This document shows, piece after piece, positions 1-6,950 of a DNA stretch of 23,810 nucleotides (positions are counted from its first letter, which is position 1; each line of letters begins with the position of its first letter). The position numbers and the translations under genes were made by a program. The DNA comes from a virus. Below the pieces are notes generated by a model. It was not told the DNA's origin. It made no database searches and was given only the letters and a program-made list of their open reading frames with translations. Where the stretch lies: the IMG/VR virus record IMGVR_UViG_3300012920_000266, positions 1 to 23,810 of that record, one strand, 5' to 3'.

Positions 1-971
1 TGATCTGACATTTCTTCGTCATTAGCCATATTAGTTACTGCATTTGATAACTCGTATTTTGATACAGTAAACTCATCACCAACATAGTGATCTAACCTTT
101 CAAAAATACCAGCACGTTCACTATCAGTAATACCTTGTCTTTTGGCTAACTGAACTATCTGACGTGAGTTCATTCTTTCTTTAGTAGCTTGTTGAAGCTT
201 TTGAAGATTTTCCTCAAATACTTCTGGCTTTGCAACCAACTCTAATTGCGCTTGCATTTTTTCAATAGTTACTTTCCACTGCTCATCTTGAGTAGGATCA
301 ATAATAATTTTACCTACATGTTTAGCATAGAACTGATTGAAATATTGTGGCGCAACCATACCATTAGTACATACTAGTCTATATATAAATGGCTTGATCA
401 TAAGTGAACCATTACCAACTTCTGAATTAGTAATAGTAATACCACCTTGCACAACATCGCCTTTGACTACTTCGCCCTCAACTTTAGGTGTTACAGCAGT
501 AATATTCATTCTATCTCCATCATAATATGAATATTTAAACTGAACATCTAAGTCCATAAGCTTATCAAGACAATGATTAGCAACAGCATCACAATCTATC
601 CTTTTGTATCTATTAGTTAGGATAGCCCTAGCATCATAATTGTTATGACCATGATCAAAGCTTCTAATCATCAACTCCCTATCATCTCTACGATTAATCC
701 AGAAGTTAAGATTATGAGCAACCAAATCTGTGCTTTCTGGTAAACACTTTTGAATATACTGCCTACCGATTTTTAATTTACCACATAATTGATTGATTGA
801 TCTGTCAGTCATACCAAAATCTTTAGTAAGTGTGCTGACTTCCATACTCATCTGTTGTTGATCTCCACCAACAACTGTTATGTCTTTTAGATTAACTAGA
901 TAGTCTAATTTATTTTTACTATCTTCGTTAATGTGTTGTAGAACATTTTTTATTTCTGTTCCTGTTTTCAT
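1..971 (-). CDS. DUF932-like phage/plasmid protein (C-terminus beyond window)
   Basis: A leftward reading frame starts with ATG at 971 and stays open to the window edge, giving 323 complete codons. An AAGGA ribosome site lies a few bases upstream of the ATG. The segment TNSEVGNGSLMIKPF (about residues 181-195) followed by CTNGMV (201-206) is what I recognise from the DUF932 / TIGR03299 phage-plasmid family. Members are common in phage and plasmid early regions and have no settled biochemical role. Residues 225-265 look like a charged helical segment. It is the last visible gene of the - strand group, and its leader contains the hammerhead-like element at 993-1071. The family call rests on motif memory only. 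The truncation is a window effect. Confidence 0.7.
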   Translation of the reverse strand, partial: MKTGTEIKNVLQHINEDSKNKLDYLVNLKDITVVGGDQQQMSMEVSTLTKDFGMTDRSINQLCGKLKIGRQYIQKCLPESTDLVAHNLNFWINRRDDRELMIRSFDHGHNNYDARAILTNRYKRIDCDAVANHCLDKLMDLDVQFKYSYYDGDRMNITAVTPKVEGEVVKGDVVQGGITITNSEVGNGSLMIKPFIYRLVCTNGMVAPQYFNQFYAKHVGKIIIDPTQDEQWKVTIEKMQAQLELVAKPEVFEENLQKLQQATKERMNSRQIVQLAKRQGITDSERAGIFERLDHYVGDEFTVSKYELSNAVTNMANDEEMSD

Positions 972-1487: not shown

Positions 1488-1715
1488 CTAGTTACCATTC
1501 ATTATTATATTGCCTGATCTACGTTTAGATTGAATACTAAAAGTGTATCCATCTTGAGTATAAGGCTCAGCCACTTTTAAATTCCAAACTGTCTTAGCCA
1601 AAAGCTTGACACCATGAAACGAGTAGTTATCTCTTAAGTAATTTACGAACTGATCAATACTGTGCATTGAAACAGTGTGTCGTATATTTTTCATTGTTAT
1701 GTTTATTCTAATCAT
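1488..1715 (-). CDS. Small protein of unknown function (75 aa)
   Basis: ATG at 1715 is preceded by GAAAGG with about six bases of spacing. The product begins MIRINITMKNIRHTVSMHSI and ends in a basic tail. I recognise no domain. It has no membrane segment. It is the first gene of the - strand group next to the divergent control region, so it is probably expressed early. Its leader carries the hammerhead-like element B (1727-1789), whose 3' end lies about 10 bases from the start codon. The stop codon (1488-1490) sits within the ribosome site of the next gene. Confidence 0.6.
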   Translation of the reverse strand: MIRINITMKNIRHTVSMHSIDQFVNYLRDNYSFHGVKLLAKTVWNLKVAEPYTQDGYTFSIQSKRRSGNIIMNGN

Positions 1716-1726
1716 ATTTACCTTTC

Positions 1727-1789
1727 TAGTTTTCGTATTGATTATTTAGCTAACATCATCAGTATAACTTGCTAAAGGTTATAGAACTA
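1727..1789 (-). ncRNA. Hammerhead-ribozyme-like element B (type III permutation)
   Basis: On the - strand: TAGTT (1789-1785), a single C (1784, predicted cleavage after it), a 6-bp helix TATAAC/GTTATA (1783-1778 with 1768-1763, loop of 9), then directly CTGATGA (1762-1756), a 21-nt segment (1755-1735), GAA (1734-1732) and AACTA (1731-1727). AACTA pairs perfectly with TAGTT to give a 5-bp stem III. All hammerhead core positions are filled in type III order. The weak point is stem II: T1755 faces C1735, and only short pairing (G1754-C1735, T1753-A1736) is available. The block TACTGATGATGTTAGC matches element A at 15 of 16 bases. It sits in the leader of the gene at 1488-1715. Confidence 0.42.
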
Positions 1790-1810
1790 TATTTTTAACA
1801 AACTACATCG

Positions 1811-1950
1811 TAGGTCTTACCACACTTTGCGAGGTTCCCCTTGGATTAACGAACAACCTTGATATTGCCAGATCGGGTGTGGACGCCGATTTATCGAACA
1901 AGGATACGAGGTGCAAAACTTAGAATTACACGCCCAAGGCTCTGAATCAG
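1811..1950. ncRNA. G+C-richer, highly foldable non-coding block (unidentified RNA or DNA site)
   Basis: By count 66 of 140 bases are G or C, far above the flanking AT-rich DNA, and no convincing reading frame crosses it. A hairpin AGATCGG/CCGATTT (1870-1876 with 1886-1892) has a nine-base loop. Six loop bases, GTGTGG (1877-1882), complement CCACAC at 1820-1825, so a pseudoknot is possible. Outside the hairpin CCTTG/CAAGG pair (1857-1861 with 1899-1903), and CCTTGG/CCAAGG (1839-1844 with 1934-1939) can close the whole block. Competing helices also exist: CGAGG/CCTTG (1830-1834 with 1839-1843) and GGGTGTG/CACGCCC (1875-1881 with 1929-1935). The transcribed strand is unresolved. If it is -, the block is in the same leader as element B. 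I do not recognise an RNA family. Confidence 0.4.
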
Positions 1951-2160
1951 TTTTTATGAGTTTATAGAATAGTACCGATTAAACATTTTCTAATTAAATG
2001 AATATTGCCTAAAATATCAAATAAAGTAAATAATTAATACATCAGTAAAATAAGGGTTTTTTGGTTAAAAATTCCTAAAAAAGTAAATTTTTTAACAAGT
2101 TGATTTGCAATTAATACTATAAGTTCAAATCAATTGACTAAAAATAAAAAAAAGGTAATT
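1951..2160. other. AT-rich intergenic stretch upstream of the rightward genes
   Basis: This is a strongly AT-rich stretch with no supported gene. It contains the rightward promoter candidates near its right end. On the - strand, TATAAA lies at 1967-1962 but has no good -35 partner, so I do not call a leftward promoter. Low melting stability next to a structured block would also suit a replication origin, but I see no clear iterons. Confidence 0.4.
2092..2120 (+). promoter_or_regulatory. Candidate sigma70-type promoter for the rightward genes
   Basis: TTAACA (2092-2097) and TACTAT (2115-2120) are separated by 17 bases, five and four matches to the -35 and -10 consensus. Transcription would start near 2127 and give a short leader that includes the AAAGG site and ATG of the leader ORF at 2161. 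In DNA this AT-rich such matches arise by chance, so confidence is modest. Confidence 0.35.
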
Positions 2161-2162
2161 AT
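2134..2162 (+). promoter_or_regulatory. Second, weaker rightward promoter candidate
   Basis: TTGACT (2134-2139) is five of six bases from the -35 consensus, with AATTAT (2157-2162) 17 bases on. Transcription would start near 2169, downstream of the leader ORF start. The regulator gene at 2256 would then be expressed without translation of the leader ORF. It is less convincing than the upstream candidate. Confidence 0.22.
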
Positions 2163-2259
2163 GTTAAAGAATGTATCTCATAAATATATTCCCTTTCTAG
2201 TTAATGGGGGAAGTTTTGTACCGATTTCTTCCCCCTACAAATCACAGGAGATAAAATGA
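2161..2259 (+). CDS. 32-residue leader ORF coupled to the Xre-type regulator
   Basis: ATG at 2161 lies five bases after AAGG and encodes a peptide beginning MLKNVSHKYIPFLVNGGSFV. Its TGA (2257-2259) overlaps the ATG of the regulator gene as ATGA, a classic coupling arrangement. An inverted repeat, GGGGGAAG/CTTCCCCC (2206-2213 with 2228-2235), lies inside it, so a ribosome translating the ORF would melt the hairpin. I recognise no protein family. It may be a true small protein or a regulatory leader peptide. The good ribosome site and exact overlap support translation. Confidence 0.5.
   Translation: MLKNVSHKYIPFLVNGGSFVPISSPYKSQEIK
2206..2235 (+). promoter_or_regulatory. Perfect 8-bp hairpin in the leader ORF
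   Basis: GGGGGAAG and CTTCCCCC form an 8-bp perfect stem with a 14-base loop. The G runs stand out in AT-rich DNA. No T-run follows (TACAAATC), so it is not a standard terminator. It ends about 10 bases before the AGGAG site of the regulator gene and could affect that gene's translation. Confidence 0.4.
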
Positions 2260-2639
2260 AGACAGAAGTGTTAATAGCACAGAATCTATTTGCTATTCGT
2301 GTTGCTAATAAAAAAACTCAAACTTGGGTATCAAAACAAATTGGTGTTACGTTTCAACAAGTGCAGAAATATGAAAAAACTATAAACAATATTTCATTAG
2401 TTAGACTGTTAAAATTTTGTGAAGTATTTCAAATTAACATAGCAGATTTTTTATATTCTAATGCTGATGAGATCATTAAATCAAGTAAGCTTGATGAATT
2501 AGCTAAACAAAAATGTATTTTGCAGTTACAACAAATAGAAGTTAATCATAAATATTTAACTGAAAGGAAACAATATGATAAAGGTAGAAGTAACAAAGAT
2601 ATGGTTGGGCAAAGTCTCGATCCGAGAACATATCTATAA
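2256..2639 (+). CDS. Xre/Cro-CI-type helix-turn-helix regulator
   Basis: A 127-residue protein. Residues 9-66 form a helix-turn-helix of the HTH_3 type, with TWVSKQIGVTFQQVQKYEKT (about 23-42) covering the two DNA-contacting helices, followed by NISL and a third helix pair. The Q-x-x-x-Q-K-Y-E pattern is typical of alphaproteobacterial and phage Xre regulators. A helical region (70-105) may serve in dimer formation. AGGAG precedes the start at good spacing. Its position beside the divergent control region fits a regulator of the leftward/rightward switch. The last 21 residues lie over the start of the next gene in another frame and look like a run-on tail. A lytic-phase regulator is as plausible as a lysogeny repressor, since no integrase is visible. 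Confidence 0.8.
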   Translation: MKTEVLIAQNLFAIRVANKKTQTWVSKQIGVTFQQVQKYEKTINNISLVRLLKFCEVFQINIADFLYSNADEIIKSSKLDELAKQKCILQLQQIEVNHKYLTERKQYDKGRSNKDMVGQSLDPRTYL

Positions 2640-4600: not shown

Positions 4601-5190
4601 AAATCGAAGAAATTAATCTAGATCAGATTATACCATATAAAAATAATCCTAGAGAAATATCAACTGAAGCTGTAGAAAAAGTTAAAAATTCTATATTAGA
4701 ATACGGAAATAATCAACCTATCGTTATAGATCAAAATAATGTTATAGTGGTCGGTCATACTCGATTTAAAGCACTTAAATCTTTAGGTAAAAAAACTGCT
4801 TATGTAGTAAAAAAAGATTTTGATAAAAATAAAGCTATTGCTTATCGTATAATGGACAACAGAAGTGGCGAGGAATCTAAATGGTCAAATAAATTACTGA
4901 AAGAAGAAATCAAATTATTAAGTGATGAAAAATTTAATTTAGATTTAACAGGGTTTGATACTTCAGAGATAGATTCAATGTTTTTTAAAGAAGAAACACT
5001 TGATACCGATATTGGTGGCGAAGAATTTACAGGTGCTATAAATGACGTAAAAATGATACAATTATTTTTTAATCCAAATAATGAAGAAGCTTTTAAAAAA
5101 GCAGTAGAACAAATATCGCAAAAACACAACATTGATAACATTAGTGATGCAGTTTTATTAGCAGTTAAAAATGAAGCAGATAATAGCTAA
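4597..5190 (+). CDS. ParB/sulfiredoxin-like domain protein of a DNA-modification cassette
   Basis: ATG at 4597 gives 197 residues. A TTG further upstream would add an unconvincing cysteine-rich tail. The N-terminal domain (1-115) has YKNNPR (14-19), QPIVID (40-45), VVGHTRFKALKSLG (51-64, with the GHTR box 53-56) and YRIMDNRSGEES (82-93). This is the ParB-N/Srx type found in phage modification operons, often placed next to or fused with DNA methylases. The C-terminal part (150-197, MIQLFFNPNNEEAF onward) resembles a tail I associate with such phage proteins. Here no methylase is attached, and the next two genes are a TET-family dioxygenase and a glycosyltransferase. A DNA-binding guide or nucleotide-dependent enzyme for base modification is inferred. 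Confidence 0.75.
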   Translation: MKIEEINLDQIIPYKNNPREISTEAVEKVKNSILEYGNNQPIVIDQNNVIVVGHTRFKALKSLGKKTAYVVKKDFDKNKAIAYRIMDNRSGEESKWSNKLLKEEIKLLSDEKFNLDLTGFDTSEIDSMFFKEETLDTDIGGEEFTGAINDVKMIQLFFNPNNEEAFKKAVEQISQKHNIDNISDAVLLAVKNEADNS

Positions 5191-6151
5191 AGAAGTTCTA
5201 GACCTAGATCAAATAAAAAAACTTGAGGGAACTTTTATAACTGAAAAACACATTGATCATTTAATAGAAGAAAATACTATCGTTACTAATAAAAGTGGCA
5301 AATTAATTGCTGTTTTAATTAAGAATGCTATTGATAAAAATATTTTAAATTCAAGTAGATCATCATTTAGAAAAGCTGGTAAACGTGGTTCTAATAATAG
5401 AGGCATGGCTTCTGGATTAATAAGTCAGTTTTACAAAGTAGGCGACAAGATAGGCGACAGAACTATAGGGAAGATTGATGGTACTAGATATACACCAATC
5501 AATATTAAAAATGGCAAATTATCAAAAACAAGTTACGCATTAACTGTAAACAGTAGTACAGTAGGATTTAGTGATAGATACCCAAGAATACCTTATTGCA
5601 GAACAACAGCTTTTAGTCAAAAACACTTAAAAGAATATAATTTAATGATACCTTATATAAAACAAATAGATAATCTTTATAAACAGTACGCACCATACAA
5701 TTATGATTTACAAAAAAAAGTTGCTGATGCGACAAGTCAAGATTTTGTTATTAAAGGCACAGCATTTACCACAGCTACAGTAAACAGAAATTATAGAACA
5801 GCATGTCATTATGATGCTGGAGATTTTAAACATGGGTTTGGTAATTTAGGTGTTTTATCTGTAGGCAATTATAAAGGAGCTTATACTGTGATTCCTAAGT
5901 TCGGCATAGGTTTGAATTTAAGAGATGGAGATGTAGCTTTATTTGATGTACATGAATTACATGGTAATACTGAAATAAAACAGATTGGATATTCTGAAAG
6001 GATTAGTGTAGTTTGTTATTATCGAGAAAAAATGATTTACTGTGGAAACTCAGAATATGAATTAAATCGTGCTAAACAAGGCACTAAAACAATATTTAAT
6101 GATGAAGAAAAAAAAAGGGCGAAAGAAATTTACGCAAAATTAAATGTTTAA
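5171..6151 (+). CDS. TET/JBP-family 2-oxoglutarate/Fe(II) DNA base dioxygenase (5mYOX type)
   Basis: A 326-residue protein. The double-stranded beta-helix core starts near residue 195 with AFTTATVNRNYRTACHYD. H213 and D215 form the HxD iron motif, H264 in HELHGN is the distal iron ligand, and R277 in ERISVVCYYREK is the 2-oxoglutarate-binding arginine. GFGNLGVL (222-229) and GAYTVIPKFG (236-245) are hallmarks of phage TET/JBP proteins, which oxidise the methyl group of a 5-methylpyrimidine in DNA (5-methylcytosine or thymine) to hydroxymethyl. The 190-residue N-terminal part includes a basic patch (65-77) and a conserved-looking CRTTAF segment. The gene overlaps the ParB-like gene by 20 bases and is followed by a glycosyltransferase, the typical arrangement for making glycosylated bases. 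The substrate base cannot be told from sequence. All catalytic residues are present. Confidence 0.9.
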   Translation: MKQIIAKEVLDLDQIKKLEGTFITEKHIDHLIEENTIVTNKSGKLIAVLIKNAIDKNILNSSRSSFRKAGKRGSNNRGMASGLISQFYKVGDKIGDRTIGKIDGTRYTPINIKNGKLSKTSYALTVNSSTVGFSDRYPRIPYCRTTAFSQKHLKEYNLMIPYIKQIDNLYKQYAPYNYDLQKKVADATSQDFVIKGTAFTTATVNRNYRTACHYDAGDFKHGFGNLGVLSVGNYKGAYTVIPKFGIGLNLRDGDVALFDVHELHGNTEIKQIGYSERISVVCYYREKMIYCGNSEYELNRAKQGTKTIFNDEEKKRAKEIYAKLNV

Positions 6152-6950
6152 TATGCATTATGCTATGGCAAATACAGTAATTGAAGAACCATTGATTTAC
6201 CCTATTTTAATACCAACTAAAAATAGACCTGAGGGTAAAAGTTTTAAATTATTACAAGATTTACCATGTCATAAATACATTATAGTTGAACCACAAGATT
6301 TTGAAAAATATATACATTTAAACGAAGACTATACAGTAATTAAAATGCCAGAAAACAACATGGGATTACCTTATGCTAGAAACTTTTTAAAAAAATTTGC
6401 AGAAAAAAAGTATGATTGGTGGTGGCAGATAGATGATGATATAAGTGGATTTTTTGAAACTAAAAATAGAAAAAACGTAAAAATATCGCCTGATAAAGCC
6501 CTCTACGAAGCCCAACAACTCTTTAAAAAGCTTCCTGTCGCTATAGGTAGCTTAGAATATCAACAATTTGCATGGTCACAAACTAAAGATTTTAAACTCA
6601 ACAGCTATGCTGATTGCGTTGTATGTTTTAACACAAAAAGGACAAAACCCTACTCTTACGACAATAATCAACAACTTAAACAAGATAGGGATATGGTGTT
6701 ACAAGTTTTAAGTGATGGTCAGTTTACAATGAGAACAAGTACAATATCATTCGGCGCACCAACTATGGGTACTAATAAAGGTGGGTTACAATCAGTCTAT
6801 AGAGCAGAAAAAGAAAAAACATCAGTAGAAAATTTAATCAAAAAATGGGGAAAAAACATAGTAACCATGCAGATTAAAGATCAAGCACAGGGTAAACGAT
6901 ATGATGCAAAAATTAATTGGAAAAGATTCAAAGTTAATATAAATGTTTAA
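6144..6950 (+). CDS. TET-associated glycosyltransferase (TAGT-like, GT-A fold)
   Basis: A 268-residue protein. YPILIPTKNRPEG (about 19-31) is the nucleotide-sugar-binding start of a GT-A fold, MGLPYARN (73-80) lies in the usual helix, and WWWQIDDD (92-99) supplies the metal-binding DxD motif (D97, D99). FGAPTMGTNKGG lies near the C-terminal active-site region. This matches the glycosyltransferases encoded next to phage TET/JBP dioxygenases, which are thought to add sugar to hydroxymethylated bases. It overlaps the dioxygenase gene by eight bases, so the two are likely co-translated. The start is uncertain: ATG at 6144, 6153 or 6165 are all in frame and none has a strong ribosome site. The sugar donor is unknown. 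Confidence 0.82.
   Translation: MFNMHYAMANTVIEEPLIYPILIPTKNRPEGKSFKLLQDLPCHKYIIVEPQDFEKYIHLNEDYTVIKMPENNMGLPYARNFLKKFAEKKYDWWWQIDDDISGFFETKNRKNVKISPDKALYEAQQLFKKLPVAIGSLEYQQFAWSQTKDFKLNSYADCVVCFNTKRTKPYSYDNNQQLKQDRDMVLQVLSDGQFTMRTSTISFGAPTMGTNKGGLQSVYRAEKEKTSVENLIKKWGKNIVTMQIKDQAQGKRYDAKINWKRFKVNINV

Follow-up and report, generated by a model that had tools for sequence, protein, structure and literature searches.

A type III hammerhead ribozyme predicted to cut between a structured leader RNA and the first gene of an operon in pelagiphage-like viruses

Hammerhead ribozymes have been described in phages in several settings. In prophages they occur in clusters, for which processing of the transcript into gene-length mRNAs has been proposed and partly tested; such clustered hammerheads are active in vitro, and one set is active in E. 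coli (Perreault et al., 2011, PMC3088659, in the sections drawn on here). The haloviruses HF1 and HF2 carry a hammerhead termed HHphage, and a transcript 5′ end maps close to its cleavage site (same sections, PMC3088659). Insertions between the CUGAnGA motif and the stems never exceeded one or two nucleotides in the part of Eckert et al. (2023, PMC10085705) used here, according to which a change at G5 of this motif also abolishes hammerhead cleavage, and the portion of a 2017 review cited here names the role of bacterial and phage hammerheads an open question (PMC6155905).

We analysed a hammerhead-like element on the minus strand of a viral DNA record of 23,810 nt, which was taken at its full length and is called the window below. 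Its gene set is pelagiphage-like, with a terminase, a major head protein, a Cro/C1-type regulator, a DUF932 gene, a TET/JBP oxygenase and a TET-associated glycosyltransferase, and the closest isolate by DNA at the hammerhead locus is Pelagibacter phage HTVC112P. The oxygenase lies beside the glycosyltransferase (5171-6950, plus strand; PF12851, PF20691), a pair pointing to modified cytosines in the phage DNA. The stretch at 1727-1789 is very probably a small self-cutting RNA, with a predicted cleavage site, which in marine phages lies exactly between a leader RNA and the gene that opens an operon. The first open frame 3′ of the ribozyme (1488-1715, minus strand; 75 aa) has its ATG 11 nt past the ribozyme, and a family match was sought for this frame and none was found. 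A promoter scan 5′ of the leader located none: minus-strand sigma-70-like matches lay only within genes, and the number of such matches did not exceed that in shuffled sequences.

Read from 1789 down to 1727, the minus strand is TAGTT C TATAAC CTTTAGCAA GTTATA CTGATGA T GT TAGCTAAATAATCAAT AC GAA AACTA. The perfect pairing of TAGTT with AACTA (1789-1785/1731-1727), claimed in the original prediction, was confirmed by script and by reading, and the block order, the 6-bp stem I and the 21-nt spacing from CTGATGA to GAA are likewise as it had described. More specifically, the 5′ strand of stem III, UAGUU (1785-1789), pairs with AACUA (1727-1731), and its U1785 is U16.1; C17 follows at 1784, and cleavage is predicted 3′ of it, between C1784 and U1783. 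Stem I consists of 6 bp between UAUAAC (1778-1783) and GUUAUA (1763-1768), and in loop I UUUAGC (1771-1776) is proposed to form a 6-bp pseudoknot with GCUAAA (1745-1750). The core CUGAUGA (1756-1762), read from the sequence, is followed by an inserted U (1755) between A9 and stem II, then by stem II with its loop (1735-1754; GU/AC, G1754-C1735 and U1753-A1736), and lastly by the core GAA (1732-1734), which together with the 3′ strand of stem III fills 1727-1734 according to sequence and descriptor. All parts of the hammerhead-class core (CUGANGA, GAA, the NUH triplet and A15.1-U16.1) are present in 1727-1789; the A15.1-U16.1 pair, which our descriptor requires, occurs in 19/19 distinct type III and 46/46 type II copies. 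Stem III is open and the blocks run in the order S-C-G, which is the type III permutation. Both the descriptor and a covariance model, R1, place this hammerhead, hereafter element B, at 1727-1789 on the minus strand.

The descriptor asked for stems I and III of at least 4 bp, U16.1-A15.1, H17, a stem II of at least 2 bp and 0-1 inserted base, and it was composed, insertion option included, after the sequences had been inspected. It matched the window at exactly two sites, 1727-1789 and 1004-1061, both on the minus strand, against a mean of 0.013 sites in 150 dinucleotide shuffles of the window, 2 of which had any site; the earlier argument that two such cores are hard to explain by chance holds up. 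The collected phage loci (1,054,871 bases, overlapping records not merged) gave 154 descriptor sites, the same loci read backwards gave none, and 610,732 bases of cellular loci gave none. Chance origin was ruled out by the shuffles together with cellular look-alike sites, none of which fit a hammerhead (97 stretches matched, 80 loci scanned).

To gather relatives, we scanned with the DUF932 gene and three forms of the conserved sequence block. The type III block was found at 50 viral-contig sites, of which 32 had a type III hammerhead, 2 a type II hammerhead and 16 none; among the 16 misses, L057 is truncated because its contig ends there, and the other 15 are in sequence that is unrelated. 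A loss of the TAGTT/AACTA pairing or of GAA in related phages that keep the 16-base block, which the original prediction had named as evidence against itself, was not seen at these 50 sites. The type II block (30 sites) had a type II hammerhead at 28 and none at 2, and the third form (19 sites) had 13 type II hammerheads by descriptor and 6 hammerheads by eye. The descriptor therefore has blind spots, having missed these 6 of the 19 third-pattern sites as well as by-eye hammerheads in L210, L211 and L213; we read the misses as due to over-extended hairpins that violate its minimum loop rule, and the copy counts (75 distinct) are therefore too low.

These 75 distinct hammerheads from related phage contigs comprise 51 type II and 24 type III copies by descriptor. 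A type III copy, with a stem III of 7 bp, is carried by the cultured pelagiphage HTVC112P (matching stretch MN698246, 3900-4220), which was the only one of 50,697 phage records to cover at least 80% of the type III stretch in a BLAST search; the remaining matches were short and taken for chance, and the type II stretch found no convincing record in the same kind of search. Compensating changes in stems I and III, which had been suggested as a check, came to light when 19 distinct type III copies were compared. All six positions of stem I are paired in 19/19, two of them compensated (A-U/G-C and U-A/C-G exchanges at pairs 2 and 3). In stem III, pairs 1-5 are formed in 19/19 and three positions vary in step, because in the window and in two relatives the helix is displaced by one base. 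Overall, 97.4% of the 313 cells of the type III alignment are paired, against at most 44.7% when it is slid; 4/20 pairs changed on both sides and 16/20 are invariant. Since the descriptor forces pairs 1-4 of both stems, it is the compensation and not the percentage that serves as evidence.

The type II copies vary more widely. In 46 of them, positions 2-6 of stem III and 3-4 of stem I each show 2-5 kinds of pair and have every cell paired; at the centre of stem II stands U-A in 29, G-C in 11 and C-G in 6. Changes on both sides occur at 9/15 pairs, with a covariation score of 0.514 versus 0.192 for shuffled alignments. Covariation in stems I and III, as looked for in the hammerhead class, was thus found. 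A repeat that is only coding or only DNA-binding was ruled out, as the pairing is conserved rather than the sequence. The same distinction bears on the proposal that the block is kept as a DNA recombination linker that shuffles gene modules among phages, the hammerhead fit being secondary. Near-identical type III copies do precede many different genes (they vary widely, judged by eye), and hybrids occur, for example L056; but the compensatory changes in stems I, II and III preserve RNA pairing and not DNA sequence, and we consider this proposal extremely improbable as a replacement for the ribozyme, alongside which a linker role may nonetheless hold. In L056 (reverse strand, about 6441; on the contig that also includes L015), the 5′ half is type II and the 3′ half type III, which suggests that recombination took place inside the shared core block. 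L062 (about 5176, plus strand) has the type II order, but its stem I, loop I and core are those of the type III family, making it a step between permutations.

Stem II is where our reading departs from the original prediction, which held that the pair next to the core is missing. Without an insertion, the first stem II pair of 1727-1789 would be a U-C mismatch; once U1755 is counted as an insertion, stem II adjoins the core and G1754-C1735 and U1753-A1736 pair, in a register that covaries in the type II relatives. The suggested shared variant with a reduced stem II is accordingly right in that the feature is common to the copies, but it is better termed a one-nucleotide insertion before stem II, seen in 68/75 distinct copies. 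Stem II has 3 bp and covaries in type II, and has 2 bp in type III, where both pairs are present in 19/19 distinct copies. Because these pairs never vary in type III, stem II can be argued for in type III alone only by analogy. The inserted U is absent, and loop II contains an additional hairpin, in the type III copies at about 6800 in L092 and about 8050 in L215 (both plus strand). Type II copies with no inserted base occur in L041, L046, L080, L083, L106 and L110; in these, CUGAUGA or CUGACGA is directly followed by GUC, and the next genes start with MLIFGK, MSFKPQ or similar.

The covariance search proposed for the element succeeded with a model of our own and failed with existing ones. R1, built with the window left out, scored 1724-1792 at 86.6 bits (E 1.3e-17). 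Even with E allowed up to 10, the Rfam hammerhead models missed element B; they matched 0/9 type III copies in 14 related loci, and found nothing in 8 further loci. In the same 14 loci, Rfam Hammerhead_II recovered 9 type II copies above its curated cut-off. Hammerhead_3 is the name of an Rfam type III family; a known Rfam type III model as the identity of element B was rejected, there being no match.

Energy folding gave no support for the type III fold. The hammerhead secondary structure of the window copy, computed without the pseudoknot, comes to +1.2 kcal/mol, and the predicted optimum is a different hairpin at -5.7 (z-score 0.45 versus shuffles). Nearly every copy allows loop I to pair with loop II, and the window copy allows 6 bp. 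It shows one compensatory change in type III (UUAAGC/GCUUAA in L053), and one position changes from G-C to A-U in type II. Compared with shuffled partners, the observed pairing is 5.5 versus 5.12 for type III (24% of shuffles as good) and 4.47 versus 4.41 for type II (40% as good), so in neither type does the proposed pseudoknot do significantly better than the shuffles. The weak stems of the window copy, its unfavourable folding energy and a degraded stem II in the second element of the window could be taken to mean that we are looking at an inactive remnant or look-alike, retained as a hairpin spacer 5′ of the ribosome-binding site. Core bases and compensatory changes are, however, kept in both permutations across 75 distinct copies, and a plain spacer has no need of GAA or C17; we judge such a remnant very unlikely. 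The hammerhead interpretation of the original prediction is supported.

The second element of the window, element A, is a type II hammerhead at 995-1061 on the minus strand (descriptor match 1004-1061), with predicted cleavage between C1036 and U1035. Its stem II is partly lost, with AU/GU in place of GAC/GUC, leaving only A1061-U1004 and U1060-G1005 in the window, and it scored 24.4 bits with Rfam RF02276 Hammerhead_II, below the curated cut-off of 37. The hairpin of its stem III also scores as a terminator-like site on the plus strand (1035-1058). Elements A and B had been put forward as two independent regions; the permutations do differ, but because both carry the 16-nt block TACTGATGATGTYAGC they are not independent in origin, and they are different permutations within one family. 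Behind element A lies the DUF932-like gene (3-971, minus strand; PF06067). The two types also have characteristic places with respect to genes. Type III copies end 10-16 nt 5′ of an ATG. Type II copies mostly end 28-37 nt 5′ of an ATG, and 46/51 start -1 to +7 nt from an upstream stop codon, although 3 of those 46 sit behind a leader, where the upstream frame may be spurious. Up to four successive hammerheads occur in one locus (L003, L092, L100).

Directly upstream of the type III ribozyme we found a structured leader RNA, class 1 (1785-1998, minus strand); the aligned stretch, 1784-1998, takes in the 5′ strand of the ribozyme and C1784. In an alignment of 24 rows, these relatives share a hairpin, an H-type pseudoknot across it, a long-range helix and a small hairpin. 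Of 552 cells, 94.2% are paired, and 14/23 pairs changed on both sides. The covariation score is 0.503 versus 0.177 for shuffled and at most 0.100 for slid alignments, the structure having been drawn from that same alignment, partly by eye, which gives it an advantage in the comparison with slid versions. A search of window positions 1700-2260 with 4227 Rfam models at E<=10 returned only chance snoRNA and sRNA matches for the leader.

Scanning viral contigs with the class 1 leader alone gave 31 sites, 2 of which end at contig ends. All 29 complete leaders have a hammerhead behind them, 26 by descriptor (21 type III, 5 type II) and the remaining three (L210, L211, L213) as type II by eye. A class 2 leader of unrelated sequence was found at nine sites (L046, L063, L080, L083, L092, L100, L214, L215, L216), and 9/9 are followed by a type III hammerhead at 148-151 nt. 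In L106, a class 2 leader still carries a remnant of the 5′ strand of type III, but the hammerhead behind it is type II. Type III and type II hammerheads thus interchange at the same place after a leader: the position of the hammerhead, behind the leader and ahead of the ribosome-binding site, is fixed relative to the leader, and the gene and the permutation vary.

A complex, pseudoknotted leader that always stands beside a hammerhead might be expected of a regulated ribozyme, in which the leader as sensor or partner would toggle cleavage as a gene switch rather than let processing run constantly, and the competing hairpin predicted for the window copy is built from the same loop sequences. 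Two unrelated leaders and two permutations combine freely, however, so no special leader-ribozyme contact is conserved, and the distance from the leader anchor to the cleavage site is inconstant among class 1 sites (116-216 nt). We regard regulation of this kind as unlikely. With the ribozyme constant behind the leader and both gene and permutation variable, the simplest explanation would be that cleavage is needed to part the leader RNA from the mRNA.

The reading that we prefer, and in which we have good confidence, is that 1727-1789 on the minus strand is a self-cleaving type III hammerhead that frees the leader, and that type II copies cut between later genes. The ribozyme, with its extra U between CUGAUGA and the 2-bp stem II, would be held together by the loop I-loop II pairing. 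The early leftward transcript would then be cut 3′ of C1784. We infer that this happens in cells, where the upstream product would be the structured leader RNA (about 1785-2000), ending in a 2′,3′-cyclic phosphate, and the downstream product an mRNA whose 5′-OH lies at the stem I hairpin and precedes the first ATG by 68 nt. Cuts of the same kind would be made between later genes by type II copies (995-1061 in the window), leaving hairpins on both new ends that are possibly protective. One transcript would in this way yield a free leader RNA and gene-length mRNAs with hairpin-bearing new ends. An antitermination or trans-acting role for the freed leader is a guess. More tentatively, and with rather more doubt than belief, the hammerheads of marine phages may be seen as interchangeable makers of 3′ ends for a new class of phage RNA, with at least two unrelated leader RNAs that act alone afterwards, so that the ribozyme belongs to the leader and not to the gene; in that same tentative reading, the target of a freed leader might be, for example, RNA polymerase, with the leader as an antitermination RNA, or else host RNAs.

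The family, backed by covariation, ties the hammerhead to a definite predicted job, cutting behind a leader RNA. It occurs in a culturable phage (HTVC112P on HTCC7211), in which the predicted cut can be checked by RNA-end mapping. Hybrids such as L062, and the site at which type II can take the place of type III, show how permutations can give way to one another in nature. No earlier account of the hammerhead family and no paper on HTVC112P were found in the open-licence literature; the family may be contained within published supplementary data sets. As far as searches of open-licence papers show, the hammerhead family in pelagiphage-like viruses, its partnership with a leader and the exchange of permutations at the same site are new.

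Compared with known systems, the resemblance is closest to the clustered prophage hammerheads, several of which also flank single genes or short gene blocks and which likewise have a two-base-pair stem II and, in some, a 10.1-11.1 mismatch, as well as loop I pseudoknots like the one proposed here (Perreault et al., 2011, PMC3088659). A constant leader partner and a swap of permutation at the same place, both seen in the present phages, are not mentioned in the sections of that paper drawn on here. HHphage of HF1 and HF2 is similar in its place, 13 nt 5′ of the start codon of the first early-operon gene, but its insertions lie near C3, whereas the present element has its insertion after A9 and stands behind a structured leader (PMC3088659, same sections). 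Element A and its relatives resemble Rfam RF02276 Hammerhead_II, relative to which the UG before stem II is an insertion. Type III hammerheads of viroid-like satellites, in the portion of the review cited above, share the block order with open stem III, and in them loops I and II are in contact, as is proposed here (PMC6155905); in contrast to them, the present copies lie in a phage 5′ UTR, have a 2-bp stem II with an inserted U and a proposed Watson-Crick loop-loop pairing, and have no Rfam match. The three-block view (S, C, G) that Eckert et al. (2023, PMC10085705) apply to non-circular permutations, in the part used here, applies to this family too, although the orders found here, SCG in type III and GSC in type II, are classical, unlike those non-circular ones. 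The predicted cutter is of a known kind; its constant association with a leader is new.
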